Part shown: piece after piece, positions 23,370 through 55,105 of the stretch | How the letters are laid out: each line of letters starts with the position of its first letter | How positions within the stretch are numbered: the first letter of the stretch is position 1 | NCBI RefSeq assembly: GCF_910592395.1 | Contig: NC_088319.1 | Location: forward strand, 11,284,001 to 11,348,000 | Length of the DNA: 64,000 bases | Direction of reading: 5' to 3' | Origin: Lineus longissimus | Lineage: Eukaryota; Nemertea; Pilidiophora; Heteronemertea; Lineidae | Notes under the pieces: generated by a model | What the model saw: only the letters and a program-made list of their open reading frames with translations | What the model was told of the DNA's origin: nothing | Databases searched by the model: none | Position numbers and translations under genes: made by a program

Positions 23370-26300
23370 ATGCTTATGACACTCGTACCGTTTGATCATT
23401 CTCATACATTACTTCGCCAGGTTGCGTTTCACAACCCCATCTACAGCCTCAGCCCAGCTGCCTCTGGAAACGATGCATCGGTGGAAATGTCAGGATTTAA
23501 CTCGGACGATGTCTCAATGGATGACATCCGGCTTATTGACCAATCAGCGTCTATATGGCAGAAAATTAAGTCACACAAGCTGGTTTCCGGTATCCTGACC
23601 CTAGTGGCTGTTGGCATAGTGGTGGTCATTTCAGTGGTGGCACTTTATTATACAGGTAATCAGAACGTTTTTTATTGTATTTTTATCATTTCTTTGAAAA
23701 CTTCGTCAACAATATCATGAGTAACAAATGAAAATAGCCGAGTAAAGTGACTTTTGTATCGTGTAACTCCAGTGAATGTTTAAGAGCCTCCTTTTTTATT
23801 TTTTATTTTACCTCCAGGAAACTTGTCCGGCCTAAGCTCACCTTTGGGGAGCAGGAGCGGGAATCTCACCACAGCACCTACCACTACCCCACATGTCACA
23901 ACAACTTTGTCCAGAGCCTCTACCACGCAAAAAACAGCCGCAAAAACGCCAACGACCACAACAACTTCGTCCAGAGCCTCTACCACGCAAAAAACAACCG
24001 CAAAAACGCCAACGACCACAACAACTTTGTCCAGAGCCTCTACCACGCAAAAAACAACCGCAAAAACGCCAACGACCACAACAACTTTGTCGAGAGCCTT
24101 TACCACGCAAAAAACAACCGCAAAAACGCCAACGACCACAAAAACTTCGTCCAGAGCCTCTACCACGCAAACAACAGCACCAAAAACGCCAACGACCACA
24201 ACAACAACAACGACGACGACAACAACAGTTATGCCTCCGACAACAACAATTGCAGCACAGAACAAATGTGTTTCAAATGTCTTTTTCGACGAGGTGTGTT
24301 CAGCTTTGGCAGGCTGGAAGACGACGATAAGGCCAAACTTAATGAACCAGACGAAATTCGTAAGTAACATGTTTTATTGGCTCATAGTAGAAAGGGTAAA
24401 CAATAAACCCTATGTATTAGTTTTGGTACAAATAGTATCTGTCTACACAGTGGTAATGTTGAGGTTTCTATTCAGTTCGTATTTACGCAATTGAAATTTT
24501 CAAATTCAATTACAAATTACAAATTTTGATTTTTTAACGAACGGAGTACTAGGCCTTTAAATCAACAGCCGTCAGTGACCACGGTGTATTAAGGGCACCC
24601 AACAAACTCTCTGTCTGGTCGTTGTAAATATTATTACTTAAGTGATAACATCGTCTACCACTTACTCGCCAACCTTGATAAGATGACAGTCAGCTCACAT
24701 GATAACAGTTCAAGTGCCTCACTATAGTAACATAAAATTTATCAGTGAAAGACATAGGTTTCAAAACTCCCCATGGGGGCGTAACATACCTTGGATTCAA
24801 AACATTTCTACTTCAGGGTATACATGTGTGTACTGGTATTCCACCATCTACACCCTAACAAAATCTTGCAGATGATTCGAAATTCCAATCACAATTACGT
24901 CGGGCGTACTGGTGAACGCCGCAGCAATGCAAGTTGCTAAAATTGCTATACTTATAATACCTATCTATTTGCAAGACACAAATGCAGTTCTTTTCAAGTT
25001 TCTTGTTAAATTTTCCAGCTTGTAGCTCGGGATGCGGTGAAGGCGATTCAATCCATGTCTCTACATGATAGCCCTATTTGCGACAGAAGGATCCTGGTAC
25101 ACTTCGCCTGTGCCGTCTACTTCCCAAAGTGTGTAAACGACCAGGCCGTGTTGCCCTGCAAGGAGTACTGCATTGGTAGGTCATCATGGCAAGTACGTGA
25201 ATAGCCAGGGCGTGTTGCCTTGCAAGAAGTAGTGCATGAAAGCATGAAAGGAATAAACATGGTGAATTGAATCACAAAAATAAAGGGGCGCAAAGGTTTG
25301 ACAGTTTGGTATACTTACATGTATATCATTAAAATTCATCCTTTCAGATACATACAAATTCTGTTACGGCCTCACTGCGCTCGATTCCCTCATGTCTGAA
25401 TGCATCAGGAACTACCCCTCGAGATCCCCTGGTGGTACATGCGTCCGACAACCGCAACGTGAGTACACTCCAGGCCTCACTTTGAAAATTTCTCCTAATT
25501 TTTAAACTCATCATATGACTCTTACCTTAGAGAAATCAAAGCTCTTATTACGCCACTAGGAGTTAGGTCTTGCGTGCATGATACCATCGTGATGGTCGAC
25601 ATCAAGCTGTTGCAGCTGAATTAAGTCAAAGTTATGATTTTATCATCTTAAATCATAACACAGTTAATCAGTGACCTTTAGTAACAACTGTAAATCGTTG
25701 CAATATCGGTTATTGCGTAATACATGTAGACAAAATACGTCGATGATTTCTCAAAGTGACCATGCCAGTGTGCAATTTTTCTGAAATTGAGATAACAGCG
25801 CCATCTGAGTTGCACTAGCCATGTATACTTGTACACCAATTATCATAGTGATATTCAAAGCCATGTCGATTCTATAACTCTTTATCCTCTATTCATGCAT
25901 TTCGTGCCATTATACTCTTAATGCACAGAGTCATTCAAACTGAATCTTTGAGTGGAGTTTTCTCAAGATGAAAAGTTTGCTCATTTGTCACTGAAATCAT
26001 CGACGAATACTCCTAAAAAAACGAAATCTATATTTTTACCATATCCTCACTGTTACCATTGTATCCTGACCTTTTCCATTGTATCCACTTTTACCGTTCA
26101 TATCATATCCTCACTTTGATCATTGTGACCTAAAGTTTAGCATATCGTATCCTAACGCTTACTGTCAGCACTCCACTGTCTAATAACTTTTACTATTGCC
26201 TTCCCCTTTGACCATTATCTGCTAAAATTCGTCTCGATCCTCACTTTCTAAAGGATCGAATTGTTGTAGACTACATTTTACAACGGATGTAGAGCAAAAA

Positions 26301-29300
26301 AACCAAACATCCCGAGTGCTCTACATCCATGATTTCACCGTTGTCTACTCATTGACATTGCCTATATGTACTAACTTTTACCATGATTGTTTCACCCACT
26401 CTTCCCCGTTTCTGCTCACTTTTACCAAGACTGTAAACTTTTAACCGACTTCGATACATTTTCAGTGTTCAACTGTAGTGCAGGTGAGTTCATGTGCATG
26501 AATGGGCCAATGGTCTCCAACAAGACTACGTGCATCCAAGCAGACAGGCGCTGTAACTACCAGTACGATTGCTTAGACCTGTCAGACGAGAAGAACTGCA
26601 ATAGAACTTGTCCTTTAGAAGAATACAGGTAAACACAGTCAATGCATGCACTATTGAAGATGAAGGGTTTTGAGCTTCAGAAAACCTTTTTAGGTTTCAG
26701 CGAACACAAATACATGAAATATGCAAGCCGTAAAAGTTTTTCAGTGAAAATGACAAACCTTAAATAATTTTGAGTTTGTGAAAAACCTCAAAGGGTTTTT
26801 CGTTTTTTCGTTTTTCGTTTTCCCCTGAAAAACCGCTACTTTGTGTAGGCTGAAGATTTTGAAGCCACCACCTCCAGTTAATTGTCTAATCTCAAACAAC
26901 CTTCTATATGGAGATATTCAAAGCACCGGCCAACTACGTGTTTCAATTGCCACCTGTTCTGAATGTAAAACATTCAGATTGCGATTACTCAAAATTAAAT
27001 CTTTGCTGATCGGCCACCGCGACGATACATGACCTTGGTTGTTCATTCCAGTTGCAAAAATGGCAGCCGAAGTATCTTGAATCCATCCTCGGTCTGCATC
27101 AAGGTCTCCGAGCGCTGTGACGGCAAGAACCATTGTAGTGATGGCAGCGACGAGATGGACTGTGATGGCGACTGCGGAAAGGATTGGTTCAAATGCGAAA
27201 ATGTAAGTACATGTAAAACTAGCTTTTAAATAGCCGCTTCACATCATGATCAAAGCCATTCAGTATCCTGGAGTGTCCCGGGTGATGTGCCGTTAAGGAG
27301 CACTGGACTGGGAGCAGCTTCTAAGCGCATCCCTAAACTTTCGAACCATTAAACGTGGTAACGATTTGATTGGACGGTGCAGGAACATGACCCGCCAATG
27401 CGCGGGCATTAAGGAATAAGAGACGGGTCTGCATTGACCCATTTGCATTAAACATATATTTCCTCTCCAAGGGTACCGACACCATCACAGGAGGGCATTG
27501 CATCAACATGACCCGCCACTGTGACGCCATCAAGGACTGCACAGATGGCTCGGATGAGAAGCATTGTCCGGAGAGACAGTGCCATAAACATGAGATGAAA
27601 TGTGACCGCGGCATTAACAGGTAGGCTACATGAAAGGGTACTGCGCTGTACTGACTACTGCTCATATACCTCTGTCGGGTAGTCTTAAAACCGCGCGGAG
27701 AGATGAAGGTTTTAGTTAGAAAAACGCTTCGTCGCTCGTCATTTTGGTGCAGAAGCGCTTTTTTGCTGACCCCGTGATGAAGTGGGATAGATAACTTTCA
27801 ATGATAACTGTTGTGAACAACTGTTGTGAGTGCGCAAAAATCTGCCTGCATATTCACAAAACCTCTATTTGAATTCAAGTCCATTCCAAAGAGAAATTCC
27901 CCTAAACCCATTGGTTGATACGCGTGTGTGTGTGTGTGTGTGTGTATGATCGTTTTCGATTTTGCGTTGACGACCGATTCTTAGACACCTTGGTTGCAAC
28001 GGACTTTACCTCTGGCCGAAGACAGAGTCAAATGGCGAATTAACCCAATTGGTACTTAACCGTAGTGGCACGTAAATGCGCTCATCCCGCCTTGCAGAAA
28101 GAATACCTGAAGAATAACATGGCACCTCCTTCAAAGTATAAAGTGAACGCTGAGGAAGAAAAGGAAGAAAATGTTGTAATGCATTTTCACACTGCGCTTC
28201 GTTTTCGCTGCAGCGGTTAAGTGGTGCCACAGCCCAGTACGTTACTTCCTCTTGTACATCAACTTACCTGCTCTCATTTATTCATTTATTCAACAGATAT
28301 ACTAGAACAAACTGCCTCCTGAATATTTACGCATGTGATCGGGACAAAGATTGTTATGATGGCTCCGACGAGTCAGGTTGTAACTACACATGCAGGGCTG
28401 GTTTCTTCGGCTGCAAGACGGGAAAGTTAGCAATAAATCCATTTTACGGTTACTGCATCAATAGCACAATGGTATGCGATGGGATGGCCGAGTGCGAGGA
28501 CTTTAGTGATGAGTTGAATTGCAATGGGACCTGTCCTAATGGCGGATTTAGATGTTTGAACGGCACTGCTAAGTACTCATCCCCAATTAGCTCTAGGAAA
28601 TCACACTGTTTGCCGCGATTCTACAGGTGCGACGGAATAGGACAGTGTGAAGATAACAGCGATGAAAAGAACTGCAATCGGACTTGTAAACTCAGCGAGT
28701 TTCGATGTGAGAATGGGACTGATGTTAACAACGGCGATGACTGCGTGACCCGCTACGAGCTGTGTGATAAAGTTAACCAGTGTAGTGACGGCAGCGATGA
28801 AAAGAATTGTAAATACATGTGCCTCCAGGGGGAGTTTATGTGTGAACAGGGGTCAAAGTCGGGTAACATGAGTGGCTACTGCATCTTCGCAAATCAAAAG
28901 TGCGATGGCATCGCGCAGTGCGAAGACGGGAGTGATGAAAAAGGATGTACGAACATTATCTGTCCTGAAAAGTTCAAAAGATGTCGGAACGGGACCGATA
29001 AAATTGGTAACCAGTGCATACCGGATGATGAATTTTGTGACAAAAAGTTCGACTGCTCCGATAAATCAGATGAGTTAAATTGTACTTTTAGGTGTTCTGG
29101 TAACTTTAGTTTCGAGTGCGCAAAAAGCCCTGCTGTGACAAGGCGCGTTGGGGTTCCCCCTTACTGTGTTCATTGGTATCAGCATTGCAACGGTCCCAAA
29201 GACTGTATAGACGGAAGTGACGAGCTGAACTGTGCGTCCGTACCGTGTCCACCGCAACATTTCCGCTGCTTGAATGGGAAGGACTGGTTACACGGCGACT

Positions 29301-32300
29301 ACTGTATCAGGGGACAGTATAAATGCGACAGGACGCGCGACTGCACGGACGGTAGCGACGAGCTGGCATGCACCTACCGCTGCCCTACCGGCCAGTTTAA
29401 GTGTCAAAATGGAAGCATCATGACCTCGCCCGGGCGTGGGTACTGCCTTGCGGAGGACAAAGTCTGTAACGGAGTCCACGATTGTGCCGACGGGTCCGAT
29501 GAGTTAGACTGCAAAAAGAAGAACTGCTCGGATTCTGAATTCCGCTGCAAGAACGGCACCAACAAACACAGCGGATCCACTGACTTCTGTATCAACAAGG
29601 ACTACACCTGTGACCGCGATTTCGACTGCACGGACAGGAGTGACGAGGCGCCCATCTACAACTGCACGTACTCGTGCTCGCCCGGGTACTTCTCATGCAA
29701 GAATGGAACAAGGACAGTGGGATTTGGTCACTGCATCCCGGGCTACTACGTCTGCGACAAATGGGCGGATTGTATAGACCACAGTGACGAAAAGCTTTGT
29801 AACCATCGGTGTAGCGATAACGAGTTTAAGTGCCTGAATGGATCAGACCTGGCCAACCAAAAGGTTTGTACGAAGCGTGTTTATCGTTGTGACAAGAAGA
29901 AAGACTGCTCTGACAACAGTGATGAGGAGGCTTGCAATTACGTCTGCCCAAATGGCACCGTGAAATGCCACATTGGCGTTCTCAAGTAAGTACAGATGTT
30001 GCATGCATGTCCAACATGTCCAAGGGCAGACATACAGCACCCATATGGACAACATCTATATTTGACTGGGCTTGTCGCATGTACCGATCCGCGGATGTGC
30101 CTATGTGGACACAATACCTCCATATGCAGGCCTTGTTGTCCACATGTTCATCAGGTCGAGTCTAGCTTGCTCATCTGCGCTAGACTTTTCAACAGGAAAT
30201 GAGAAGGCTCATTTTCTCTGCCCGAGAAATGTAAAATGTTCGCCGAAACGTTGGTCGTGCGAAACCCCTTTTAAGCAAGACGTTTAGACTAATATAATAC
30301 CAGTTTAATCGCAATCAGTTGGATCAGGGTTGAATTAAGATGAATCACATTTATTCGAGATCACTCGAGATGCCCAAAATTGAGTTGTATTCAGTTCGAT
30401 TTCTTTGAGTTGATTGACTACGGCTCCCCTCCAGATCAGGGCGTGGCTTCTGTTTCAACACGAATCAGGATTGTGACGGCAAGATCGACTGCGCAGATGG
30501 GAGTGATGAAAGAGACTGCGGTGCGAAGCAGTGCCCCACGGATCACTTCAGATGCCTAAATGGTAAAGCTATGTAAGTACCTCTCGATATTTGAACGGGT
30601 GAGTGTGGTCCACATTTTCTTCATATCCAGAACAACTACCAAAATCGTGTCTACTTCCGTATTCAGTGAATGCACTGGACGGACATAATTCCGACTGCAC
30701 CTACGAAGACTTGTGGTAAACGGAGCGATGAAACGTGTGCGGATGATGTGATCTAAACCCTTATAGTGTATGAAAAAAATAATGTCACATGTCGATTGAT
30801 TTTTTTATTTTGACCTAATCGCCTTGTACTTTGGTCTGTCTGGCCCGCCGTCTACACTTACCATGGCGAACTGACCTGCTCCCACCAATGGATTCCAACT
30901 TGTTCCAGCTAAAAAAAGGTTGCCATTCTCACATAAACGACCAGCTCTCTTTACCAAGCCTTTCTTACATGATTCCAGTGCCAGTGGATCCTACTGCATT
31001 TACAAGGATCTCCGTTGCAACCGCAAACAAGACTGTTCAGATGGCAGTGACGAAAGGGACTGCCCGCCTTACGCATGCCCGGATGGAAAGTTCAAGTGTG
31101 CGACGGGTTCGGCCTCCTTGAGATACGCCCCGTATCAAGGCTTTTGTGTCAACGCTACGTCTCGCTGTGACGGTTACTTCGACTGCGCGGACAGGAGTGA
31201 TGAAAATTCTTGCAACGTGACAAAATGTCCCACCGGAGAGTTCCTCTGCAACGGGGAACATGCAACAAACAAACATAACGGGCATCGTTGTTTACCTTTG
31301 TCGTACAAATGTGATCGCGACCCAGACTGCACGGACAAAAGTGACGAATGGAACTGCACGTACACGTGTCCTAACATAAATCAAGTTGCATGCCAACAGG
31401 GAACACTTAGGCGGTTCCCGTTTTACGGATTCTGTATCAACAGGGCTGAAACGTGTGACGGATTTTTAGACTGTGTTGATGGTTCAGACGAGAAGGACTG
31501 CGGTAGGCGCTGCCCCGCGAACATGTGGGCGTGTAAGAACGGGGTGAGTGTCTACACCATGTCCAGGTGCATCAAAAGTACCTACAAGTGTGACAGAGAT
31601 CGCGACTGTACAGACGGCAGTGACGAGGCGGAGTGCACCACCGCCTCGTGCATCTTTGGTAACTTTACCTGCAAGATTGGCACGACGAACTACAGGCCAT
31701 ACCAAAGGTGTACGCCAGTCTCTACAAGATGCGACGGAAGCTGGCACTGTATGGACGGAAGCGATGAAAAGGGTTGCAACAAGGCGTGTAATGCAACGGA
31801 ATTCAAATGTGCACAGTCGTTAGCCGCCGCGGACGGGGAGCGATGCATCAACTTGAACCACAAATGCGACAGGATCGAGGACTGTCTGGATAAAAGTGAC
31901 GAGAAGGACTGCAGTTATCAGTGCCCCGCCTCCGACGACTTCATGTGCACAAGTGGCGCCATTAACAGGTATGTGGCACCATTTGTTAAACTAATAGGAA
32001 GTTCTTGCAAAGCCCCCAAAACGCCAACGTGAACGCCTATCCCATTGTTTAACCTCCTGACAACGAAGTTAAATCTTTCGGGGGCTTTTTTCGAAAAATC
32101 CCTATTGTCGGACCAGAAATGATAAGGCGTTTTCACCCGGCCTGATTCAAGAATCAAAATCAGAATCGAAAACAGGCTAATAAAACATATTATTTGTTAA
32201 CGACCAAATAAGCACAGTTGTGACAATATTGTGAAGAGATCACAATTAGCATGCGTCGGATAGGCAGTTGCAGACTCAGTTTCATTTTATGGTAAAAGAA

Positions 32301-34244
32301 GAGTCAGTTCCATTCCTGGTCGTCGGATTCTCCACGGGTGCGTGTAATAACTTTCAGTCTTTACAATCTATTAAGCTGAGATTTAGACGGCGGCGGGGTT
32401 CAATCATAGCTTGCGGCCAGTCCGCTTCTTTTTTGAGATCCTCTGGCGGTGCGACAGCGTTGCAGAAAATGTGGAGGGATCGGCCTACCTACCCTTGTGT
32501 CCAGCAATGTGTAAACCCTTGGTGAAAAAAGTGTAAATCAGCAACAGAAAGTGTAATTCCTGAGTTTTATAATGATTTTAGCTTGATTTTGAAACAAGTT
32601 GCCTTGAGTTAAAATGTAAAACAGCCCGAAGAAAGTGTAAACAGGCCTTGCCATGTGTAAAATTTCCCCCAAATGTGTAAGGGTATAGGCAGCCTTGGGG
32701 GATAGACATCCATTCATATTGCTCGAATGAGCTTAATTTAGACATCCTAACTGTGATTACATTCGTTTTCATTTGACGAGGGTGAATAACGGTAACCGCC
32801 TTCCACTTTAGCACCTTCCTTAGAGAGCGTCGCTTCTGCGTAAATAAGACGCAGCGATGTGACAAAAAAGTGGACTGTAGAGATGGAAGCGATGAAAAGG
32901 ACTGCATCAAATGTGCCCCGACTGAATTCAAGTGTACCAACGGCACCAAGAAAGGAGGTATGATCTTAAAGGGTAACTCGTGTCAAATTTCACCATGTTT
33001 TAGCTGTTTTTGACAAATGACTAAGTCACTTTCTCATAAATCGGTAAGGTTTTCGAATCGAAATGCACATTTTTCTAGAAATTGATGGTTTAATCCGGCC
33101 CGGACTGCTCGCTTCGACGACTTTTTCGTTGATGACGTCACAACATGAACATTTTCGCGGTCGCGGTGATTTACATTCAGCGATTTTATAATAAATCTAA
33201 TAAAAAATGGAAAATTTGAGCTTTACATTTGTGATCAACAATTAAAAACGGACGTATTTACGCAAAGTTGTAAATCACAATATAGTATCAGGGGATTGCG
33301 CGCGAACAGGTTTAGCCTAATGTTTACATTTTCACCACCCGAGATCAAATATGAACCTTCTCATTTCCTGTTTGAATGTCCAGCGCAGATCAATAATCAT
33401 TTTTTTCAGACTCTACGGAATGTATTGATGCGGAGGTCAGGTGTGACAGGGTTGAAGACTGCACTGACAGTAGCGACGAGAAGGCATGTAACTATACCTG
33501 CGACCCCACTATCTATTTCAAGTGTGCCACTTCCACGATTGTGACTGCCCCATATAGAGGATTTTGTGTCAAAATTTCACAGGTAGGCCTAATGCGTTAT
33601 TTTCCTCCTACATTTTCTTTAACGAAGCCCGCTCGCACCTATACACTAGGCCTGAACTCTATAGGTTCTACTGTCTTATCAAAGGGTTCACATCGTGATA
33701 CCATCGACCCCCACGAAGCATGTTTCATGGAGAAGGCCTAAGCCGACAAGGGCAAATAAAGGCAATGTTAGATTATTTGTAATCCACTACAATTACATGT
33801 AGTTCATTGATCAGAAATGCCTCTCCCTGTTTTCTCAGAACTTCTTGTTCTGCTGGCTAATACCAAGAGGCGGTTGTCTTTAGACCATGCCCAGGACCTT
33901 CCGGCTAAGTCTTTTACTTTCCCTGGCATAGGCAACAGATACACGGGACCCGCTCGGTTTTACCGCAATACAATTAGCGGTGAAAGCGCTAAGAAGAAGA
34001 AGACTCAGTTAGTTTTACTAAATAATGAACTGAAATTGCTTTTCATTTACAGAAATGTAATGGGTTGTACGACTGTCGCGACAAAAGCGATGAGGCAAAC
34101 TGCTCCTGTCCATCCGGACATTTTCTCTGTAAAATTGGTGCAAACATCGACGGCACGGGGCGATGTATTCCTAACGCGAAAAAATGTGATAAGAAGCAAG
34201 ATTGTACCGACAATAGCGACGAAGATGGCTGCTCATCGGGCTAG
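23370..34244 (+). CDS. Gene A: type II membrane protein with FZ domain and 27 LDLa repeats
   Basis: Thirteen exons keep frame throughout: 23370..23655, 23818..24359, 25019..25175, 25348..25458, 26466..26628, 27052..27202, 27472..27620, 28297..29985, 30435..30572, 30979..31968, 32824..32957, 33410..33582, 34053..34244 (4,875 nt, 1,624 aa). The N-terminus has no signal peptide. The cytosolic segment carries FHNPIY (NPxY) and DDIRLI (acidic dileucine type). TM is residues 71-93. A Thr-rich repeat stalk follows, then a Frizzled-type cysteine-rich domain (about 246-363), then 27 LDLa modules to the stop. Each LDLa keeps six Cys and the calcium-binding D..DC.D.SDE pattern. There is no protease, EGF or YWTD module. 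AATAAA lies at 34322. The start is uncertain: an acceptor-like CAG before GTT at 23421 aligns with the exon start of gene B, so residues 1-17 may instead come from an upstream exon. I infer an endocytic or ligand-trapping receptor. Confidence 0.88.
23818..24359 (+). other. Gene A Thr-rich stalk and first part of the FZ domain (exon 2)
   Basis: This exon encodes the extracellular stalk next to the membrane, made of Thr/Ser/Pro/Lys-rich 20-residue repeats ([16 protein letters not shown] core) and likely O-glycosylated. It then starts the FZ domain ([12 protein letters not shown]...IRPNL), where the PNL motif matches the usual FZ sequence T-x-x-P-N-L. It ends in phase 0, as does the equivalent exon of gene B. 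Confidence 0.8.
23897..24197 (+). repeat. Coding minisatellite, 5 x 60 bp
   Basis: A 60-bp unit (ACAACTTTGTCCAGAGCCTC...ACGCCAACGACC) is repeated about five times with few differences inside gene A exon 2. The unit is a multiple of three and lacks stops, so several other frames are open too; those are by-products. Copy number is likely polymorphic and would change stalk length by 20 aa per unit. Confidence 0.92.
24400..24560. mobile_element. TTAAAGG-family MITE, partial copy in gene A intron 2
   Basis: The sequence matches the family body (GTATCTGTCTACACAGTGG, then ATTTACGCAATTGAAATT) and ends AACGGAGTACTAGGCCTTTAA. The 5' terminal repeat is not evident. It lies just after the exon 2 donor. 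Confidence 0.55.
25019..25458 (+). other. Gene A Frizzled-type CRD, second and third exons
   Basis: 25019..25175 encodes [18 protein letters not shown] followed by LPCKEYC. 25348..25458 encodes the last part with two further Cys. Together with the preceding exon they give the ten-Cys FZ pattern. The first of these exons is exactly 157 nt, the same as its counterpart in gene B, with identical phases. FZ domains bind Wnts and lipids in Frizzled; here, next to LDLa repeats, the closest known arrangement is corin. Confidence 0.75.
27923..27945. repeat. GT dinucleotide microsatellite
   Basis: About eleven GT units in a gene A intron. Confidence 0.9.
28297..29985 (+). other. Gene A giant LDLa exon (about 12 modules)
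   Basis: A single 1,689-nt exon encodes the end of LDLa 4 through the start of LDLa 16 without an intron. Modules run in tandem with linkers of only 2-4 residues between the last Cys of one and the first Cys of the next. Many linkers form N-x-T-C (NYTC, NGTC, NRTC), so a glycosylation sequon abuts the domain. Both ends are phase 2 and cut inside a module. Long intronless LDLa blocks differ from vertebrate LDLR, where most modules have their own phase-1 exon. Confidence 0.85.
31995..32107. mobile_element. 113-bp palindromic MITE, copy 1 (TAGGAAGTT family)
   Basis: It starts TAGGAAGTTCTTGCAAAGCC, contains AACGTGAACGCCTATCCCATTG and ends near GGGGGC...AATCCCTATT. Its ends and body match the copy at 60679-60794. 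It lies 26 bases after a gene A exon. Confidence 0.7.
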
Positions 34245-34321
34245 AGGGTTTTGGCAATTTCAACAACTTTTGATATGTTTCGTTCTTCACAGTAAATTAT
34301 TGGTCAACAAGCTAAAGCCTC

Positions 34322-34327
34322 AATAAA
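34322..34327 (+). promoter_or_regulatory. Candidate polyadenylation signal AATAAA (gene A)
   Basis: AATAAA about 78 bases after the gene A stop in the same orientation. It suggests a very short 3' UTR. Confidence 0.5.
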
Positions 34328-35218
34328 CTAATCACCTAAATTGAACAGGCAGAATGGCATCCACCGCCCATAAACCTGTATCTCCAGGTTCAGAAACTGT
34401 CTCAGATCAGAGAACGATACTATTTTGAACACCATTCAATCGGTCAAGGCCTGCGAGCGCGAGTTTTAATGATCTCAAAATTTGTTTTGCGTGTTGTTGG
34501 ACATGAAGTTTGTCTATATCCGAATGTGTTCGTGTTGGCTACTGATTTGCAAGTGACCCAACTTCAGCCGAAAATGATGATTTCTACAAGTGACGTGTCT
34601 CAATTCTAATACGTAAATGTTTTGGCAAACCTGTTAATCGTTGCGACTATTTGCGATTTGATTCTTTAAAAATTTCACGGTCATTGCATTGGGTTTGTAA
34701 GGGAGGAAAAAACGCTATTCACATGTTTACAAGTTAGCATGTGTACTGTGTTCAGTACGAACAATTTTATTATTTTTATACTTATTAGGAGTTAACTGTG
34801 ATGTCGTCGTATAAGCTTATTTGCATCTTGTATTATTTACTCAAGAATCGATACGATATAGTTAATCATACAAGAGTGTTTCAAATATTTGAAAGACTAT
34901 GATCATATCAACGATATTGGGTACCCTACAATGCAATTACATGTGTGTGTTCAGAATACTTAACAAAAATCTATATTAGAGGGGTACTTTCAGTTCCTAG
35001 CATTCAGTTTAACCAGAGTCTTTCATATAATTTATTTGAAAGAATCTTACCTATGTATGCGGCGGTAAAATCAAATGTAAATTTGTAGAGTGATATAAAA
35101 TTTTATAAAATTTGACTGATAAAACCAGAGCATGTTGTTTATCGATAGCTACACTTCATTATCTGCTAGAGTAAACTATGAAAAGTATTTCACTCTTCAA
35201 GAATTTTATCTTGGTATT

Positions 35219-35592
35219 ACGACCTCATCAAATTGTCAGAATGAACGGAATATAACGGCACGTGATAAAATCATGCTAATTTCCAATTTAAGGTACATGT
35301 AGTAGTAGCAGAAGATAATGCCGGACCGACACTAATGCTAATATAGAGTTACTCTTTAGAGGGCAGTTCTGGCATGCATCTAGCATGTGAACAGGAATGC
35401 AAACTTTTGTGTCAACTCGAGAGTGTATATCTCTGGCGCCCTCTCACATAAACCATGTAGCCTATCTCCTGTTGGTCCTCCCTTCAATTCAAAAACATCT
35501 TCGCAACTATTCTTGTTTTTGGCATGATTTTATCATGTGCAATCGTATATCGTTCATTCCGTTTGTTCTGTCAATTCGACGAGGCCTGATAT
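35219..35592. mobile_element. Palindromic element, full copy (CAGGCCTYRTCGAATTGAC family)
   Basis: Long imperfect terminal inverted repeats: the left arm CATCAAATTGTCAGAATGAA...GTGATAAAATCATGC is mirrored by GCATGATTTTATCATGTGCA...TGTCAATTCGACGAGGCCTG on the right. Length is about 374 bp with no coding capacity. A truncated relative is at 22231-22440. Confidence 0.72.
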
Positions 35593-44200: not shown

Positions 44201-47200
44201 TACTTAAGTTTAGATTTAAAAAGGCACAGAGTGCTAGAGACTTCACAGACAATTGACGACCTTGACTTTGAAGCAGCACCGCCATCGGCATCCCATCGGC
44301 AGAAGCTCAAACAAATCTTGCATCCGGTTACGCATGCGTATGACTCAGTATCCTTGGTTAAGGATTGGTTATACCTTGGTTACTTATCAATATGCAATTT
44401 GATGGAATTTCCCCTATCGGTATTGCAACCAAATTCCAAACATTGTTCGGGAGTGGGCCAAACTTTTTGAAATGCCAATCCATTAAAAGAAAAAAAAGTA
44501 AAGTAACCCTTTAAAACTGTATTAATGTGGATTAAAATTTGCATTCTTTTACAACGCGACAGGTACATCACCTCCACCGATAAAATCAACCACCGCGCCA
44601 AGGTCAACTCCAGCGCCGGCGCTGACTACCGTCTCCACTAAACGATCGACAACCACGTCCAGACCACGTCCGACTCAACGTGCCACCACACCACGGCCAC
44701 CACAACCTGTCACAACCGCTGAGGCATTCGATAAATGCGTGGACCCTGACGACTTCAGACGATATTGTGGCCATGCCGTTCATTGGAATTACACGCAGTT
44801 TCCAAACTATCTGGCTCACTATAATACAGTAAGTTCAATCAAGAACAAACACATTGTATTGTTCATCTTATCGGCACTTTTCTCACAGCAGCTTTGGTAA
44901 GGGGCGAAATTATGTAATGCTGATTGAGCAGTCCATCTGAGTTCTACTAAAAAGTGTCCAGATGGACCATGGTATAAATGTAAAGCACTTTGTGAATGAT
45001 GTGCAGTACAAAGCACTATATGACCTAACACCCTTCTGTTCCTTCAATATTATTCCAAATTATCGTCCAAATTTTCACAGGCACAAGCCACGAGTTTCTT
45101 CGACAAGGTTTACGCCAACATTGAACATTGGGGCGATGACTGCATGGAGAAGGTGGAACATTTTTTCTGCACCGTTACTTTCCCCGAGTGCCTCCCGAGT
45201 GGCACTAAAATACCACCGTGCCGGGAGTACTGCTTAGGTAAATATTCATGCATACGAAACCTCTGCCCTCTAACACCGAGTCTACCAATGTTAACGACAC
45301 CCCGACAGAATCTCCAGAACTACATATAGCAGCCCTGAGTAAGGAGTTCTGGCCATCCGCGTCCATCCCATGCCACCATCCAGACAACAACACTATTGTC
45401 TCCAGAATAGGAATTCTCCATAATGCTTTTTGTGCAGGCAGCTCCCCTCTTTGCCTTCTTGAGCATCTTATCAGTCATGGACATCTTCCTAGAACATGAT
45501 CCACATCAAAAAGCGTTTTTTTTATGGTTTCAGATACATACCAGAAGTGCTATAGCGTCATTGAGAAGCTTACCATCACCGGTCTTCGATTCCTGTGTGG
45601 GTCATTCCCTTCAGATACGGGCAATCAGACATGTGTCCCAGAAAGCAATGGTAGGTAACTCAACACCCCAATTGCGTAATTCTAAGTGAAAGTCTGTGGA
45701 CCTAGCGAAGAGATGGTGTTTTGAACAAGCAGGCCCCGATCTGATATTGTGTCGATCTTGTTTCAGGTGCGAAATGTCAGCAAAACGAATTCCTGTGTAT
45801 GAACGGGCCGACTGTCTCGGCTGCCAGTATTTGTATCTCACAGTCTCGAAGATGCGACGACCACATCGACTGCCTTGACGCCTCTGACGAAAAAGACTGC
45901 GGCAACCAATGCGATATCACTCAGTTTCAGTGCGTCAATGGGACGTCCAAGCTCAAGGCCGGGGTCTGTGTTGAGCTGGACCAGCGGTGTGACGGACTCG
46001 AGCAGTGCTCTGACGGGAGCGATGAAGTGGCTTGCGACGGCCAGTGCGGAAAGGAGGAGTTTGAATGCCTGAATGGATTCGACCCCGTGGTCAACAGCAG
46101 GTGCATTCAGATGTTGAGAAGATGCGACGGCAATCGGGACTGCACGGGCGGAAGTGACGAAGCAAATTGCCCTGATTCTGCAGCAACTTGCCAAGCTGGC
46201 GAATTCGCGTGCACGACAGGTTTGAACCGGTTCACTCGTGGGCGCTGTGTCCTGGACGAATACCGTTGCGACTCTAGTCACGATTGTTACGACGAGTCTG
46301 ATGAAAAGGGTTGCGAATACCAGTGTAATAACAACACGGAATTCCGCTGTTTGAACTCCACAGTCGCCAGTTACCCATACCACGGGTTTTGTATAGAGAA
46401 TTGGGAAGTCTGTGACGGCTACATCGACTGTGCCGATAAAAGTGACGAAGCCGCTTGCGACGGACTCTGCAGCAGGAAAGACTACAAGAGGTGCAAAAGC
46501 GGTGAGGACATATACACCAGTAGCGCATGCGTCGACATCGAATACTGGTGTGATGGCGTCGCAGATTGCACAGACCTAAGCGACGAAACTGACTGTAACA
46601 AAACATGCGAAGCCAACCATTTTAAATGCATGAACGGGAGTGACACCAATACTGGCTCGCCCTGCATCCCCCAGTCGTACGTCTGTGACAAGATGCGAGA
46701 CTGTAGTGACGGCAGCGATGAAGCCAGTTGCAACTACACTTGTCCCATCAATAAATTCCAATGCAAGAACGGGCCAATCTCTCACTACCCCTACCAGGGC
46801 TACTGCACAGATTTAGAGAACCTCTGCAACGGCCAAAAGGACTGCTCCGACCACAGCGATGAGGAAAACTGCGGGCCTGTTATCTGTGAAACTGGTTACA
46901 AAGCTTGTAAAAGTGGCATCGACGAGTACGGCAACTCTTGCGTACGGGACGTATACTTCTGTGACAAGTACCGCGATTGCAGCGACTCCTCCGACGAGTT
47001 GAATTGCAACTACACATGTCCACAGCCGAGAGATTTCATGTGTAAAAACAGCACTACTTATTTTGATGACTATTGTATTGATGAGACCTATGTCTGTGAT
47101 GGTGTCAATGATTGTATGGACTTATCAGATGAAGATGACTGCGGCGGGGACATCACTTGTCCAAACAACTATTTCAAATGCAAAAACGGCCGAGACTGGT

Positions 47201-50200
47201 ATACTGGGGACTATTGCATTCCTGATATGTTCCTTTGTGATGACGATGATGACTGTACGGACAGCTCGGATGAAGTTGGCTGCGACAGGGACTGTGGCAC
47301 TGGAAAGTTTTCCTGCGTGAACGGGACAATAGATAGGTTGGTACAAACTGATTACAATTCTCAAAAAGATAACCCATACGTTTTTTGTTTGGAGGATAAT
47401 CCTTCTAATCCTTCTTAGCATCTGTTCTACGTCCAGACTATTCCGTGTCTAGGTAACCACAAGCCGCTACGAACCGAGAAATGTGCTTCACTACTTGGTA
47501 TCATATGTAGATGACCTCACACTGTTTATGACAGCGTCAACACTAACAGAGACTTTGCACTCAATGTAAAAAACTAAATTGAATTAACTGGATTGAATGA
47601 CGCCGTCATGAAAGGTTAGCGTGCCATTGGACATAACAAACTTTTGAATATCAGTAACCAGTCCCTGAACAAAGGTAGAATAAGATTACTATGGGATTTC
47701 ACCATGATTTGTTCCACGACCCATTGCTTATGTACTCACTGTCGTTAATACATCAACAGACTATCAGTTTATTCTGATTGTCATTCTCAAACCATTCCTC
47801 CTGCCTATTGTTTATCTTAGCTATCCGTTCACCAGTCGCTGCATTGACTCAGATGAAGACTGTGATGGCTATTCTGACTGCACCGACAACTCCGACGAAT
47901 TGTTCTGCGAATTCAAACCCTGCCACTCCGGGCATACCCGGTGCGAGAACGGAACGGACGTGTACAATGGCGACTTCTGTTACAAGGATGAGTACAAATG
48001 CGACCGAGACTACGACTGTTCCGACAAGAGTGATGAAAAAGACTGCGACTATTCGTGCCCCGATGGGAACTTCTCCTGCACCAATGGAACCATATCGTAC
48101 TTCCCTTACTTCGGCCATTGCGTGGCTGACGTGTACCGCTGCGACGGTCAGTCACATTGCACTGATGGAAGTGATGAATTGGGCTGTGGGCAGACCTGCG
48201 CGGCGCACCAGTTCAAGTGCCTCACTGGTGCTGATGTGGCGAATGGAGATGTTTGTATCAGGATCGAGCACCACTGCGACAGGGAGTACGACTGCACTGA
48301 TGGCAGTGACGAGGCTGGATGTAACTACACGTGCAAGGCTAATGAGTTCAAATGTGAGACTGGAAGGATTAGCAAGTATGTTATTCTGCTTCTACTTCTG
48401 CGTACGGAATCTTTGAGATGCACGCGAGACAGTCAGTCCGTTTTCGGTTACAAAGTCGTCAGTCCTGGAGGGTTCCACCACAGAGCCCCAGAGCTTTCGT
48501 GGTCAGGGTGGTGTCCTTTGGCCAGTATTCAGCTCTATTCTTAATAATCATCGTTCGACCTCCTGATCACGATTTCGAACAATATGGGCGGGACAGGCGT
48601 TCAGGCAGACGTTTCGGGGGATTTGCGATAGCTCACTAATGACTCATCCAGACCCGAATCTCATGCCTACATCGTGCAATACAATAGGTATCACGTATTA
48701 TTTCTAGGCTTCAAACTCTGCTTTATGCGCCATTGCAAGTATGTGAATTCTACAATGTACGAATATCACTCTTTTATCATTCATGATTTCGTTGTCCAAT
48801 TCTAGGTATCCTTACCGAGGATTCTGCTTGTCTGCTGATGAGAAATGCGACAGCTTCATGGACTGCGTTGACGGAAGTGACGAAAGGAGTTGTGGAAACA
48901 AAACTTGCCCGTTAGGGTATTTCCGGTGCCAAAATGGAACAGACAGGTAGGGTCAAGCCTAGTACCAAGTCATTGCGCCTCCACCAATTCCTGACGCAAG
49001 GTTGGATTGTAGCTACGTTAGCCAGGCTGGGTTAGGTCACTTCAACATGTTCAACATGAATTTTGTACCTGCTAAGTGCTAGTTTGTGACTTATTGTCTG
49101 GGTTTGCCATCTCTGTAGAATAGTTGTTCGGTAGGGTCGTCTTACCAGCAGTAAGTTTTAAGGGAGAGAATATGATTTCTGATATTCATTTTTTGAGTTT
49201 CCTCGGTATCAAACCTAGTACCTCAAATTCATTCCCGATATGTCGTCGTTTACTGCGTTTATGTAGGAGTGTTTAAGTTACTATTTACTATTTGAATGTG
49301 TTTGAACACCGAAAGCAATTCACACTTAAAACTAGTATGAAAGGAAATAACGCATTTGATATTGACTGCATGCTTATGGGAATGACCAAAACTATGTGTA
49401 CTGAAGAGTATTTCTCCAACTTAAATCATACTACACTTATTTACAAGCATGAACGTTTAACCAAGCTGTGAAATACAACTCAAAGACACAATGAATGTTC
49501 TTCGTCTGCAGATATAACGGGCATGCCTGTATCCTCGAGAACTACCGCTGTGATCGTGACGCCGACTGCACCGACAAAAGTGATGAGATTGGTTGCGACT
49601 ACTCCTGTAAGACGGGCCAGTTCAAGTGTGAGACGAGTACAATCGCTATCCCGCCGTACACTGGATTCTGTCTGAACGTCTCATTGAGATGTGATGGCCA
49701 CAATGACTGCTTTGACTCAACGGATGAGGAGAATTGCAACGTGACGTGTCCCCCGGAAGAGTTCAAATGCGTAAATGGTACAAGCGTCCACAACGGCGAC
49801 CGCTGTATCAGGAAGGAATATCTTTGCAACAGGGAACCCGATTGTTCTGATTCTTCTGATGAGGTGGGGTGTAACTATACGTGCTCTCAAGGACAGTTCA
49901 AGTGCCACACGAGGAGCCTTAGGAGGTCCCCGTACACTGGCTACTGCCTTGATGCGGCCGAGGAGTGTGACGGGTATTCGGACTGTGAGGACGGTTCGGA
50001 TGAATTAGACTGTGAAAACAAAGGCTGTTCATCTGGTCTCTTCAGATGCCTCAACGGAGTAGACAACTACAATGGCGACCGCTGCATTAAGAATGATTAT
50101 GTTTGCGATCGTGATAATGACTGTTCTGACAACAGCGATGAAGAAAATTGTACATACACGTGTCCCCAGGGAGAATTTTCATGCGCTTCGGGGAGCGTCG

Positions 50201-53200
50201 CCGTAGCTCCTTACATTGGGCACTGTATCAGCTTTTCCCAGGTGTGTGATGGACTATCCCAATGCCTGGATCATAGCGATGAGTTCAACTGCAACCACAC
50301 TTGCCCAGCCGGAGAGTTCCGGTGTCTAAATGGCAGTAACATTTACTCTGGTACGGTGTGCATTCGGAGAGAATTCCATTGCGACCGTGACATTGACTGC
50401 GTAGACGGAAGTGACGAAGAAAACTGTGTATACACATGCGCAAGTGATGAATTCAAATGTGCTACCAATCACATATCTTATGACCCGTATCACGGATTCT
50501 GCATACCGAAAACAAACAAATGTGATGGAACGCCAGACTGCTTAGACGCCAGCGATGAACAGAACTGCGCAGACTTTTGCCCGGTTGGTCAGTTTGCCTG
50601 CGTTGATGGCACAGACGTCAACAACGACAAATGCGTTCCAGGCTCCTATCAATGTGATCGGCATATCGATTGCAGTGATCAATCTGATGAGAAAAACTGC
50701 ACCTATGTCTGTGGCGCTGGCCAGTTCAAGTGTCGCATTGGTCATCTCATGAGGTACGTCCATAATAGGCAGGTTAAGCAACAGAAATTTGCAGTAAGAT
50801 TTTTAACAGGCTGTAGTTAACTGGAAAATGTTAGTGTAGTTTCAATGCACTCGTCCCTATAGTTAATATATTGGACATTTTTTGGACACACTCCTGGTGT
50901 GTTCCTTATAATCCGTTATTTTGAAGATTAGTATATATGACTCGTATTTTGTATGTTATGACCTTCAGGTACCCCTACAACGGCTACTGTATAGACATAA
51001 ATGAGCGCTGTGACGGACAGAAAGACTGCCAAGACGAAAGCGATGAAAAGGACTGTGACGTCAGCTGCGAGTCTTATGAGTTCAAGTGTGCGAACGGCAC
51101 AGATTTAAACAGTGGAGAAAGGTAACAATGGTACATGCAGACTAATTACTTTGGATAGGCAGTTAATTTCAAAAATGGTCCCAATTTTCCTTGCCTGTCT
51201 GAATCAATGCTCGTCTTATTCATTAGCGTAGTGGCTGTCTCCTTTTTCATTTACGCTCCGCATCCGCCTCTCATCAATGCGTCATACAAAATTAACTTCT
51301 CCTCCCCTCCTTTTCTATTCATGTTCCCTCTTGTTGATCAGTTGACACATTTGTGTTGACTTCCATAGGTACACTTACATAATGATATCTTCTTTCTTTT
51401 CCCAAGGTGTATTTTCTCATCCTTTCGCTGTGATCGCCAACAGGACTGCACCGATAATAGCGATGAACAAGGGTGCGCCTACGACTGTCAGACGTTCGAG
51501 TTCGCCTGTGCCACGGGGACAGTCACGGCATGGCCGTATCATGGCTACTGCATCAGTGCGCAAAGGCGCTGCGACGGAAAAAACGACTGCGTTGATCAAA
51601 GTGATGAAATGAACTGCGACGCCACAACATGTCCTCCAACACAATTTCGCTGCGAAAACGGGACGTCTGTATACGGAACAAATTGTATCAACCTCTCATA
51701 TAAGTGCGACAGGCAGCGCCACTGCCTTGATGGTAGTGATGAAGATAACTGTAATTTCACTTGTTCTGCTGGCCAGATCATGTGTGAAACGGGGCGTGTG
51801 AGTTCCTATCCCTTCACAGACTATTGCATCGCCTCCGGCGCCAAATGCGACGGACATAAAAATTGTATTGATGGTTCAGACGAGAAGTCCTGCGGAGTAA
51901 TTCAGTGCGCAATTGACGAATTCAAGTGCGTAAACGGGACAGATTATCGTGGTGATTTGTGTATTCCTACGCAATATCTATGCGATAGGGACAATGATTG
52001 TTCGGATTCCAGTGACGAGGGGGCATCTTGTAGCTACTCGTGCCCGAAGGAGGAATTCATGTGTGTTACTGATTCCGCCATCGCGACCGCAGCCAACTCA
52101 CGGCGCGGTTATTGCATCGCTGCCGCCAATAGATGCGACGGTACAAAGCAATGTTCAGATGGCAGCGACGAAGAGAACTGCCCCAGAGACAACTGCACGG
52201 CGTCAGAATTCAGATGCGTAAATGGTGCGGACTTTTACGGAGAACAATGTATCGCCGGGCACTATAGGTGCGACAGAGAATATACCTGTGATGACCAGAG
52301 CGATGAAGCCAATTGTACCTACTCGTGCGAAGCGGGTGAAGTCAAGTGCACCACCGGCATACTAGCAAGATACCCTTACAAAGGTAACGTATCATCTTAT
52401 TCGTTGCGTATGTCACCTTAAACAAGATGTATGCTAAACAATCACCTCCCAATTGGGCTTTTAAGTTGATAATCAAACGCTGAGATTGTGCTGCCTAGTG
52501 TTTTTCAAAAGGCAATGTGTCAGGTCGTCCGATCCTAACCAGAATACCACCCTGCCTCGGAGGGGCATGGGCCACTCTACCTTGCTCTAGAAATTTGTAA
52601 AGGGTTCCTATAGGGTGACCCTGCCTAAAATTGCTGGCCATCCGACCTTGTGTTACACACTGGAACAAACTGTTTAAATATCAAGGGTACCACCCTACCT
52701 CGGGAAAACCCTGTGGAAGTGGAGAATCCTGCACAGTGGCATGCGTTGATCACGCCCCATCAGTCTTGTGCCACAGCCTAAAAGCTCAACTATCAACCTA
52801 CTTCTGCAGCATATCTTAACTTTCGATCTTGTTTTCAGGTTTTTGCTACGATGCAATCGAGAGATGTGACTCATACAAAGACTGTCAAGACGGATCCGAC
52901 GAGGATGGATGTGACATTACATGCAACCACAGCGAACAGTTCCGGTGTACCAATGGTACTGACCAACTGACCGGCGAAAGGTGTATTTGGGATTTTATGA
53001 GGTAGGCCAATGTTCTTTGACGGAGCGGCACGCTTCCATATGATGACCAGTTCCTCAATCAAACGTAGGCCTACTTACACTGATTTATCAGCCATACAAT
53101 CATAAAAATAATACCCTTGGATCCTTTGTTTTCATACGACTCGTTACGTTCAGGTTAGTGGGAAAATCGGCACTTAGTATGGTAACAACCTTACTAATCA

Positions 53201-55105
53201 AATTTCTGATAACTCCATCACGCTTCCGTTGTCGTCGGTTTAACTTAGTGCCTCCGGCTGTCCCGTTGACGCCGAATTATGTCCTCGGTGGCTTCTTTTC
53301 TTATGGCCTCGTTAGTGCAAATAGAGATCTATTGGTGGATGTCGATCCAATCCAACAGACATCTACCTAACAAAGTGTCCAACTGTCATCACTAGGCTTA
53401 CCTTGTAGTTAGCAGTAGGACACATATCGTTTTGAAAATATTAACGAAATGCGCCAGATTTCCCTTCTTCCGTCATGTACACACGTGTCGTGGATTTTGA
53501 ATAATAGTAGCTTGATTTTCTTCTGATGTATGTGCTGGATATACATGTATCTATATATTTTACTTTTACATCCGTAATTATAGTCATAAATAGGCTATTT
53601 TTCAAAAATAAAAAAATGGCGTTTTTGATTCATTTGAGGGTAGGGGAGGTGAAATAATTACAGCAAAAAACAAGGTAGTTCTTTGCACTTAACTTGACCT
53701 AACCCCTCGTTTTCAGATGCGACAAATCTATCGACTGTACCGACGGTAGTGACGAGCTTGCCTGCACCTACCAATGTCCTACTGATTACACAGCTTGCAC
53801 CAATGGCTCCATTTCCATCTTCCCCTACCAGGGCTATTGCGTCCCAGACCACTACCTCTGCGACGGCGCCAATGACTGCGAGGACGCCAGTGACGAGGCG
53901 AACTGTGACCACGGTTGTCCTTCAAGCCAGTTCCGTTGTGCGAATGGCACGAATCGGCACGGTATGAACGATTTCACACCGGGGTTATGTTACGTCCCGA
54001 TCGTCTGATATACCGGCGTGGCCCTGCCCACTCCCACAGCGGATCGGAGCCTATTTCAATGGGCTTATATTCTGACCGTTGCCTCTCTGTGAAGAAAATA
54101 AGAGTGACAAAATTATCTGTGTTTCGATATTGAAAAGACATTTCAAGGACTTGACTATATCCGTAACATGGCTTCCAAGTAAAGTGGACGAGGCAGACAA
54201 AGCGAAATTCTACAAGTCCCTGGTTATGGTCTCTCTAGCCCTCTATTGTATAAACACAGCACAGATAAAAATGTTACACCAGGAATCAATCTATCTTTAG
54301 GGTAATTCGCTTCAAAGTTTCTAACTGTAAAATTCGTAATAAAGTTTCTTTTTCACGCAGCTTTTGGTGTATCCCACTGCGTCCACCAAGATTACGTATG
54401 CGACCGTGATCCTGATTGTACGGACGGGAGCGACGAGTTCGGATGCAGCTACACCTGTAATGATGGGGAGTTCGCCTGCCTTAGCGGGTCCATCGCGTCC
54501 TATCCATATTTTGGATTTTGCATCGATATGGCCAATGTAAGTGCTTTTATTGTTGTGAACTTGCCACTGCTTCATCTTGCATGCCGAGAACACGTCCCAA
54601 TGAAACTGGGCCCATCCTTTTACTGTGAAATGACGATTTTGTTGAATGAATTTAATGAAAATCTGCTGGCTTCTTTGGTTATTCCAATCAACCGTCGTAC
54701 AAACTCTCTCATGTAGAATTAATTCTCCCGGGTAAATTCCCTGTTATGATTCTATGATTCCAGAGATGTGACGGAAGACGCCATTGCCTTGACGGAAGTG
54801 ACGAACATGGCTGCGATTACACGTGCAGCCCCAGTGAATTCCAATGTGCCAACGGAAGTGACGTTTATAATGGCGATCCCTGCATATCCAACACCTACCA
54901 CTGTGACAGAGTCCAGGACTGTACGGATTCTAGTGACGAGGTTGGGTGCGTCTACCGGTGCCAGGATGCCTCAGAGTTTATGTGCAAGACAGGGGTTGGG
55001 AATTCGTGGCCGTACAACACCTACTGCGTGGCAGCGTCGGCGAGATGTGATAGTGTTCAGAACTGTGTGGACAATAGTGACGAACAGGGTTGTCCGCCTA
55101 CATAG
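41242..55105 (+). CDS. Gene B: type II membrane protein with SEA, FZ and 40 LDLa repeats
   Basis: Eighteen exons keep frame: 41242..41494, 41980..42111, 42525..42646, 43260..43327, 43999..44177, 44563..44828, 45081..45237, 45534..45650, 45767..47336, 47821..48375, 48806..48946, 49512..50753, 50969..51121, 51407..52383, 52839..53001, 53717..53961, 54361..54536, 54764..55105 (6,858 nt, 2,285 aa). The cytosolic N-terminus starts [12 protein letters not shown], with the FDNPVY signal of vertebrate LDLR. TM is 62-84. Then come a poly-Thr stretch, a SEA domain (about 129-251), a Pro/Thr linker, an FZ domain (about 303-430) and 40 LDLa modules to the TAG. It is paralogous to gene A in domain order, FZ exon size and phases, with SEA as the main addition. 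There is no catalytic, EGF or propeller domain. The ATG directly follows a good acceptor, so a 5' exon exists; it may be UTR or may add residues. I infer a high-capacity endocytic or scavenger receptor. Confidence 0.9.
42048..42099 (+). repeat. ACC/ACA repeat encoding poly-Thr
   Basis: An in-frame ACC/ACA microsatellite in gene B exon 2 encodes about 16 Thr with one Ser. It forms a likely O-glycosylated stalk close to the membrane, and its length probably varies. Confidence 0.85.
42525..44177 (+). other. Gene B SEA domain (three exons)
   Basis: Exons 42525..42646, 43260..43327 and 43999..44177 encode about 123 residues with the SEA pattern: an N-terminal strand (KVVSGNLKI), LELKFTNM, a short [12 protein letters not shown] segment, then [23 protein letters not shown] (codons at 44003-44017) corresponds to the G/SVVV autocleavage site of SEA domains such as MUC1. 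SEA domains occur in type II proteases and mucins, where cleavage leaves two non-covalently held chains. No equivalent was found in gene A. Confidence 0.75.
43618..43790 (+). mobile_element. tRNA-derived SINE in gene B intron
   Basis: An A box (TGGCGCAACGGTAACACC) and a strong B box (GGGTTCGATTCCCC) with tRNA spacing are followed by a non-tRNA body. The flanks do not pair as an acceptor stem, so this is a SINE head rather than a working tRNA gene. It sits between two SEA exons. Confidence 0.75.
44563..45650 (+). other. Gene B Pro/Thr linker and Frizzled-type CRD
   Basis: 44563..44828 encodes a Pro/Thr/Arg linker and then [14 protein letters not shown]...FPNYLAHYN, the first FZ block. 45081..45237 encodes [17 protein letters not shown] and PPCREYCL. 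45534..45650 encodes the last two Cys. The phases (0, 1, 1) and the 157-nt middle exon match gene A exactly, which is good evidence of tandem gene duplication. Confidence 0.8.
45767..47336 (+). other. Gene B LDLa exon, modules 1-12 (first part)
   Basis: A 1,570-nt exon holds eleven complete LDLa modules and the start of the twelfth. All keep the C...C...C..DC.D.SDE..C spacing. Modules from about the fourth onward alternate a C-D-R/K type with a C-D-G type that has a PYxGYC-like loop. The exon ends phase 2 after NGTIDR, inside a module. Confidence 0.85.
48560..48650. mobile_element. TAGGAAGTT-family MITE, degenerate partial copy
   Basis: GGGCGGGACAGGCGTTCAGG then CAGACGTTTCGGGGGATTTGCG resembles the inner and terminal part of the copy at 60679-60794. 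The other arm is not clear. It lies in a gene B intron. Confidence 0.4.
49512..50753 (+). other. Gene B LDLa exon, modules 17-26, clear two-module repeat
   Basis: The 1,242-nt exon shows the alternation most clearly. One type reads NG-x-x-x-x-NGD-x-C and then aromatic-x-C-D-R-D-x-D-C ([30 protein letters not shown]). The other reads x-P-Y-x-G-x-C and then x-x-C-D-G (LRCDGH, EECDGY, VCDGL, NKCDGT). The strict ABAB order implies that the array grew by duplication of a pair of modules of about 85-90 residues. Confidence 0.85.
51407..52383 (+). other. Gene B LDLa exon, modules 27-34
   Basis: A 977-nt exon continues the alternating array ([10 protein letters not shown] / RRCDGKNDC / [10 protein letters not shown] / AKCDGHKNC and so on). 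It starts phase 2 inside module 27 and ends phase 1 inside module 34. Its neighbours 50969..51121 and 52839..53001 each carry parts of two modules, so introns repeatedly cut between the second and third Cys. Confidence 0.83.

Follow-up and report, generated by a model that had tools for sequence, protein, structure and literature searches.

This locus of the Lineus longissimus genome raises the question of what kind of protein combines an FZ domain with tens of LDLa modules and has neither a catalytic nor a propeller module. Two such genes, here called A and B, lie within the analysed stretch of 64,000 nucleotides (the window, in which positions below are counted unless a contig is named). A sequence-only reading had described them as inverted-topology, type II receptors of a separate family, with the same architecture in both. 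The present analysis adds to that description a SEA domain in B, an FxNPxY motif in the tail of each protein, enlarged module loops and a two-module periodicity in B.

The gene models, rebuilt by hand from the raw sequence and checked by script, place A and B as tandem neighbours on the + strand, on which all features of the two genes listed below are located. Gene A (23370–34244) is predicted to have 13 exons and to encode 1624 aa, gene B (41242–55105) 18 exons and 2285 aa, as in the exon chains followed earlier. All 29 introns of the two genes are GT-AG, and the reading frames join across every one of them. Each predicted protein has one stop codon, located 3 residues past the final cysteine of its last LDLa module. 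A single gene spanning A and B was rejected, since A possesses its own stop codon and a candidate polyadenylation signal AATAAA 78 bases 3′ of it (34322–34327), and B possesses its own hydrophobic segment. Open frames arising by chance were rejected as well, because the + strand of the window contains the LDLa core pattern 57 times, and neither the − strand nor any of 50 two-base-block shuffles contains it. A profile of the A and B modules produced 82 domain matches in the window, a count that takes in partial ones; each falls on the + strand, in an open frame of A or B. No matches were returned by Rfam at the gathering threshold or by a tRNA scan.

Predicted protein A runs from an N-terminal tail through a hydrophobic segment, a Thr-rich stalk and an FZ domain to 27 LDLa modules reaching the C-terminus. 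Exon 1 (23370–23655) encodes the predicted cytosolic N-terminus and transmembrane segment, including the sequence FHNPIY (residues 20–25; 23427–23444) and the hydrophobic segment (residues 74–92; 23589–23645). The start codon may be ATG 23370 or one on an upstream exon joined before 23421, as the stretch over which the A and B tails are homologous opens at a splice acceptor in B and, in A, at a potential one; FHNPIY is unaffected by this choice. Exon 2 (23818–24359) carries the stalk, composed of 20-aa repeats, and the start of FZ, which continues in exon 3 (25019–25175) and ends in exon 4 (25348–25458). The array begins in exon 5 (26466–26628; LDLa 1 to part of 2) and proceeds through exons 6 (27052–27202; parts of 2–3), 7 (27472–27620; parts of 3–4), 8 (28297–29985; 4 to 16, ends partial), 9 (30435–30572; parts of 16–17), 10 (30979–31968; 17 to 24, ends partial), 11 (32824–32957; parts of 24–25) and 12 (33410–33582; parts of 25–26) to exon 13 (34053–34244), which holds the end of LDLa 26, LDLa 27 and the stop codon. 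Inspected by eye, the stalk contains about five near-identical 60-bp repeats (23900–24200), each encoding a Thr-rich 20-aa unit; their number could differ among individuals.

Predicted protein B has an N-terminal tail, a hydrophobic segment, a Thr-rich stalk, a SEA domain, another stalk, FZ and 40 LDLa modules up to the C-terminus. The predicted cytosolic N-terminus and transmembrane segment are encoded by exon 1 (41242–41494), with FDNPVY in the tail (residues 4–9; 41251–41268) and the hydrophobic segment behind it (residues 63–81; 41428–41484). They are followed by the first Thr-rich stalk in exon 2 (41980–42111), by SEA, divided among exons 3 (42525–42646), 4 (43260–43327) and 5 (43999–44177), and by the second, Thr/Pro-rich stalk in exon 6 (44563–44828). 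FZ starts in exon 6, continues in exon 7 (45081–45237) and ends in exon 8 (45534–45650). The array occupies exons 9 (45767–47336; LDLa 1 to part of 12), 10 (47821–48375; 12 to part of 16), 11 (48806–48946; parts of 16–17), 12 (49512–50753; 17 to part of 26), 13 (50969–51121; parts of 26–27), 14 (51407–52383; 27 to part of 34), 15 (52839–53001; parts of 34–35), 16 (53717–53961; 35 to part of 37), 17 (54361–54536; parts of 37–38) and 18 (54764–55105; end of 38 to 40, with the stop codon).

The profile check that had been suggested for SEA, FZ and LDLa was performed with Pfam. It recovered FZ (A, E = 4.5e-8; B, E = 4.1e-14) and LDLa in both proteins; SEA was recovered from B alone (E = 1.5e-14), and the remaining Pfam rows are below cut-offs. 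A SEA domain in A was rejected for want of a Pfam match, and the single architecture assumed for both genes does not hold. LDLa was found in all 10 of the array exons scanned (10 of 19 taken; E from 5.4e-79 to 2.5e-9), with overlapping matches to the LDLa-like family LDLRAD1_C in five of them. The six-cysteine pattern gave the 27 and 40 modules reported before. Adjacent modules are separated by 1–6 residues, which leaves no space for a further domain inside the arrays. EGF, YWTD propeller and CUB domains were not detected by Pfam in the N-terminal parts of A and B and the 10 array exons, and the SR (SRCR) and trypsin-like protease domains are absent from both predicted proteins. Motif scanning of the window revealed no trypsin or EGF motif and just two FWSD strings, both on the − strand. 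The 20-kb flanks on each side contained no LDLa match and no protease, EGF or YWTD motif in short-motif scans (motif set without SRCR); FZ or tail matches there were non-significant (E 0.09–0.94). Thus, the reported lack of a protease, EGF or propeller module agrees with Pfam, module gaps and motif scans.

Each protein has exactly one strong hydrophobic segment, with Lys and Arg on its N-terminal side. This predicts, as proposed earlier, a type II topology for A and B, with a cytosolic N-terminus, the rest outside and the LDLa array membrane-distal. If so, the array is positioned as in the LDL receptor with the chain direction reversed. Both predicted cytosolic tails contain an FxNPxY motif, FHNPIY in A and FDNPVY in B, at a matching place of the alignment (VAFHNPIYS versus VSFDNPVYN), the tails being otherwise divergent. 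According to the excerpted text of PMC4584282, FDNPVY is the motif of the LDL receptor, and clathrin-mediated uptake follows when Dab-2 binds NPxY. We infer that the N-terminal FxNPxY of A and B may work as an uptake signal. Among the literature matches listed, none describes a type II LDLa protein with FxNPxY in its N-terminal tail. By itself, NPxY is hardly a rare sequence: A has a second one, NPFY, within an extracellular module.

Two further short motifs bear on the fate of the ectodomain. The SEA domain of B has GSVNV (44003–44017) at the place of the autocleavage motif; in the excerpt of PMC6954182, GSVVV or GSIVA in SEA domains gives self-cleavage with the halves staying associated. The match to these is inexact, and the cleavage site in B is a putative one. 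Compared with solved chains, the B SEA gave five matches up to E 10, three of which were to named transmembrane proteases (E 0.25, 0.71 and 1.4, none significant). The sequence DSSDE occurs once in A and five times in B. The excerpt of PMC7605860 describes it as an apical-sorting motif of the corin and CD320 LDLa modules, hinting that A and B may likewise be sorted apically.

The modules themselves form a distinct class. The c2–c3 loop is enlarged in all 67 A and B modules, to 10–17 residues, versus 3–6 residues elsewhere in the genome (30 modules from five other LDLa loci). Acidic residues of the Ca2+ site are retained in 55/67 modules by a relaxed rule and in 45/67 by a strict one. At the usual docking position, two residues ahead of c4, Trp is absent from all 67, and LDLR-style lysine docking is therefore not assured; Tyr or Phe occupies this position in 28 modules (8/27 in A, 20/40 in B). 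Two module classes alternate in B: from one module to the next, the loop class changes in 31 of 39 cases (permutation p 0.00025), and docking Tyr/Phe is present in 17 of the 22 modules with a loop below 13 residues versus 3 of the 18 with a loop of 13 or more. Similarity among B modules 12–40 is 120–129 at even lags and 75–78 at odd lags, corresponding to a two-module repeat unit. For A, the idea that loop classes alternate strictly was rejected (12/26 switches, permutation p 0.68); docking Tyr/Phe is unrelated to loop class there (5/17 short, 3/10 long), and even lags are somewhat higher than odd ones (86–93 versus 77–84). B modules 21–24 were modelled with AF2 from an alignment of 12 rows taken from window stretches, some of them overlapping (mean pLDDT 84.7, pTM 0.56). 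A Foldseek search of the PDB with this model placed megalin/LRP2 on top, with low TM-scores (0.27 for the top row). Model confidence and the megalin/LRP2 match suggest that the single-module LDLa fold seems to tolerate the enlarged loop; the arrangement of modules is not fixed by the model.

A and B share the three introns of FZ, with phases 0, 1 and 1 at the same aligned positions. Their arrays are also collinear: for 7 of the 11 modules A1–A11 (A2 being a tie) the best B match bears the same number, a count reached in 0 of 20,000 permutations, and this holds for 2 of the 16 modules A12–A27. Zero offset gives the best register for A1–A11 and A12–A19, and for A20–A27 an offset of −8 is slightly above 0. 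Judging by the shared FZ introns and array collinearity, A and B are most likely duplicates of one gene that already possessed a long array and grew differently afterwards.

Comparison with known systems is best started from LDLR/LRP receptors (LDLR, LRP1, LRP2/megalin). A and B share with them the membrane-distal LDLa ligand region, the module fold and a cytosolic FxNPxY, identical in the case of FDNPVY of B, although at the N-terminus and with predicted activity. They differ in their predicted type II topology, as opposed to type I with a C-terminal tail, in lacking EGF and YWTD, in having FZ, and SEA in B, and in their c2–c3 loops, which are longer than in the 30 LDLa modules measured at other loci. 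A and B are thus predicted to work like LDLR/LRP yet are not members of that group, as EGF and propeller modules are absent and the predicted topology is not type I. Corin, against which they had also been weighed, is type II with FZ followed by LDLa modules (PMC7605860, excerpt). However, A and B have a single FZ, where corin has two, and 27 or 40 LDLa modules against its eight; they lack the SR and protease domains and have an FxNPxY tail and, in B, SEA. The earlier comparison with LDLR/LRP and corin left out MFRP. This type II protein is non-catalytic, with a spacer, LDLa and FZ outside the membrane and without an enzyme domain (PMC12036977, excerpt). It is the nearest non-catalytic type II analogue of A and B, although, as described in that excerpt, it has two CUB domains and two LDLa modules, whereas A and B have no CUB, an FZ ahead of tens of LDLa modules and, in B, SEA. 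We place A and B among the type II FZ/LDLa mosaics, as a variant. SEA-bearing type II proteases, such as TMPRSS11 and enteropeptidase, resemble B in topology and SEA and differ from both proteins in having a protease and lacking the combination of FZ and a large array. No description of the A/B architecture was found among the listed titles and abstract starts of open PMC papers.

We give about an even chance to the reading that A and B are giant, non-enzymatic type II receptors of clathrin-dependent endocytosis, acting as scavenger or lipid-carrier receptors of inverted topology. The membrane-distal, calcium-dependent LDLa array would capture ligand, and FZ near the membrane would bind a lipid or lipidated ligand. 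The cytosolic FxNPxY would recruit PTB/clathrin adaptors of the Dab2/ARH/Numb type as in the LDL receptor, though from an N-terminal tail. The SEA domain of B would cleave itself at GSVNV, the ectodomain remaining attached until force or ligand parts it. LDLR-type uptake receptors are type I and carry EGF/propeller release modules. A distal LDLa array with a cytosolic FxNPxY on a type II protein would amount to LDL-receptor logic rebuilt on a corin/MFRP-like chassis. We counted in favor of this reading the complete exon chains, the Pfam domains, the single hydrophobic segment with its basic N-terminal side, FxNPxY, the retained Ca2+-site residues, the megalin/LRP2 fold match, GSVNV, the A/B collinearity and DSSDE; against it, the missing docking Trp, the independence of Tyr/Phe from loop class in A, the enlarged loops, SEA in B only, the inexact GSVNV, the possible occurrence of NPxY by chance and the low TM-scores. 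We propose, more tentatively, that one lineage may have independently rebuilt the LDL-receptor uptake machine as a type II family, with an N-terminal FDNPVY, a dedicated long-loop LDLa class that grew, in B, by units of two modules, and a SEA release joint in one paralogue. If true, a receptor of reversed polarity that does without a propeller and has the same array and sorting signal would reveal which LDLR parts are truly needed. A without SEA and B with it would offer a natural test of the role of a cleavable joint, and the long-loop module class a new scaffold to study LDLa loops and ligand choice.

A rather unlikely alternative is that A and B are structural or barrier glycoproteins, namely long, mucin-like, multivalent surface filaments, shed or tethered, serving in the glycocalyx, particle trapping or adhesion, with FxNPxY anchoring scaffold proteins. 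The share of Thr, Ser and Pro (62% of A residues 96–245; 38% of B residues 87–320, SEA included), the N-glycan sequons (35 in A, 38 in B), the very long arrays and the SEA of B, a domain also found in cell-surface mucins, are consistent with this explanation; FxNPxY, kept in both tails despite divergence elsewhere in them, and the Ca2+-site residues, retained in most modules, argue against it.

We consider it distinctly unlikely that A and B are co-receptors or antagonists for Wnt or another lipid morphogen, where FZ would be the working part, the array a spacer or matrix binder, and SEA cleavage in B would free a soluble Wnt trap. The FZ of B has Frizzled-2/7 as nearest solved chains (E 1e-7) and that of A Frizzled-7 (E 2e-4), and ten cysteines were counted by eye in each, which would suit such a role. 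However, the LDLa array makes up by far the larger part of the proteins, and FZ is present in corin and MFRP too. To our knowledge, the roles of corin and MFRP are other than Wnt reception.

That the gene models are incomplete, real transcripts skipping the last exon to reach a protease, SRCR, EGF or propeller exon and encoding corin- or LRP-like proteins, is very improbable: corin is also type II with FZ and LDLa, and the nearest AATAAA/ATTAAA of gene B lies about 0.9 kb beyond its stop, but both stops closely follow the final module cysteine, A has its AATAAA nearby, and the short-motif scans described above reveal no protease, EGF or + strand propeller motif in the window or flanks.

Similar arrays were sought elsewhere in the assembly (391,118,348 bases, 30 contigs). 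A four-module query from B, with 150 of 176 candidates scored, matched 22 times at E ≤ 1e-10; 19 of these matches are within A and B and 3 at short-loop LDLa loci. The notion of a separate family therefore stands within this genome; set beside known proteins, A and B are the mosaic variant described above. A combined FZ-plus-LDLa query, for which 145 of 173 candidates were scored, yielded 96 rows at E ≤ 0.01. Outside the window, none of its FZ rows had an LDLa row less than 100 kb away; a row at C11:553373–553639 covers the end of the query's FZ and a small part of its first LDLa. An FZ family search of the genome returned 25 rows, and the window contributed just a weak, intron-split row of B, below the cut-off, and none of A, so that FZ genes elsewhere can escape the search if introns split them. 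The genome LDLa search scored 150 of 575 candidates; none of these genome searches is exhaustive. The N-terminus of A had no relative among viral contigs, a collection unsuited to animal genes. In related genomes, the same gene may presumably carry automatic LRP2-like or corin-like annotations.

The FZ search also revealed a single open frame of 1021 aa with eight FZ rows (C6:3431397–3434357, +) and two loci with three FZ rows each (C11:14647667–14648653 and C11:13367533–13368531, the latter with a TGA inside one row); these loci would encode multi-CRD proteins. Within the window, other features include an LRR protein (2653–3879, +), a rhodopsin-type GPCR fragment (14100–14633, +), two TNFR cysteine-rich exons (62373–63686, −) and the sequence TAGGCCTA, present in 8 copies versus about 1 expected under uniform base use. 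Among the short-loop LDLa loci, three open frames of 530 aa (L009, L010 and L012; C17:7005443–7068176, −) are built of modules that are near-identical by eye, as after recent tandem amplification. Three other loci (L015, L017 and L018; C11:4.67M, C17:15.9M and C11:13.17M) have frames of 1100–1156 aa with LDLa c2–c3 loops of 3–5 residues, followed, by eye, by an apparent leucine-rich-repeat start, in a manner that we take to resemble LDLa-LRR receptors.
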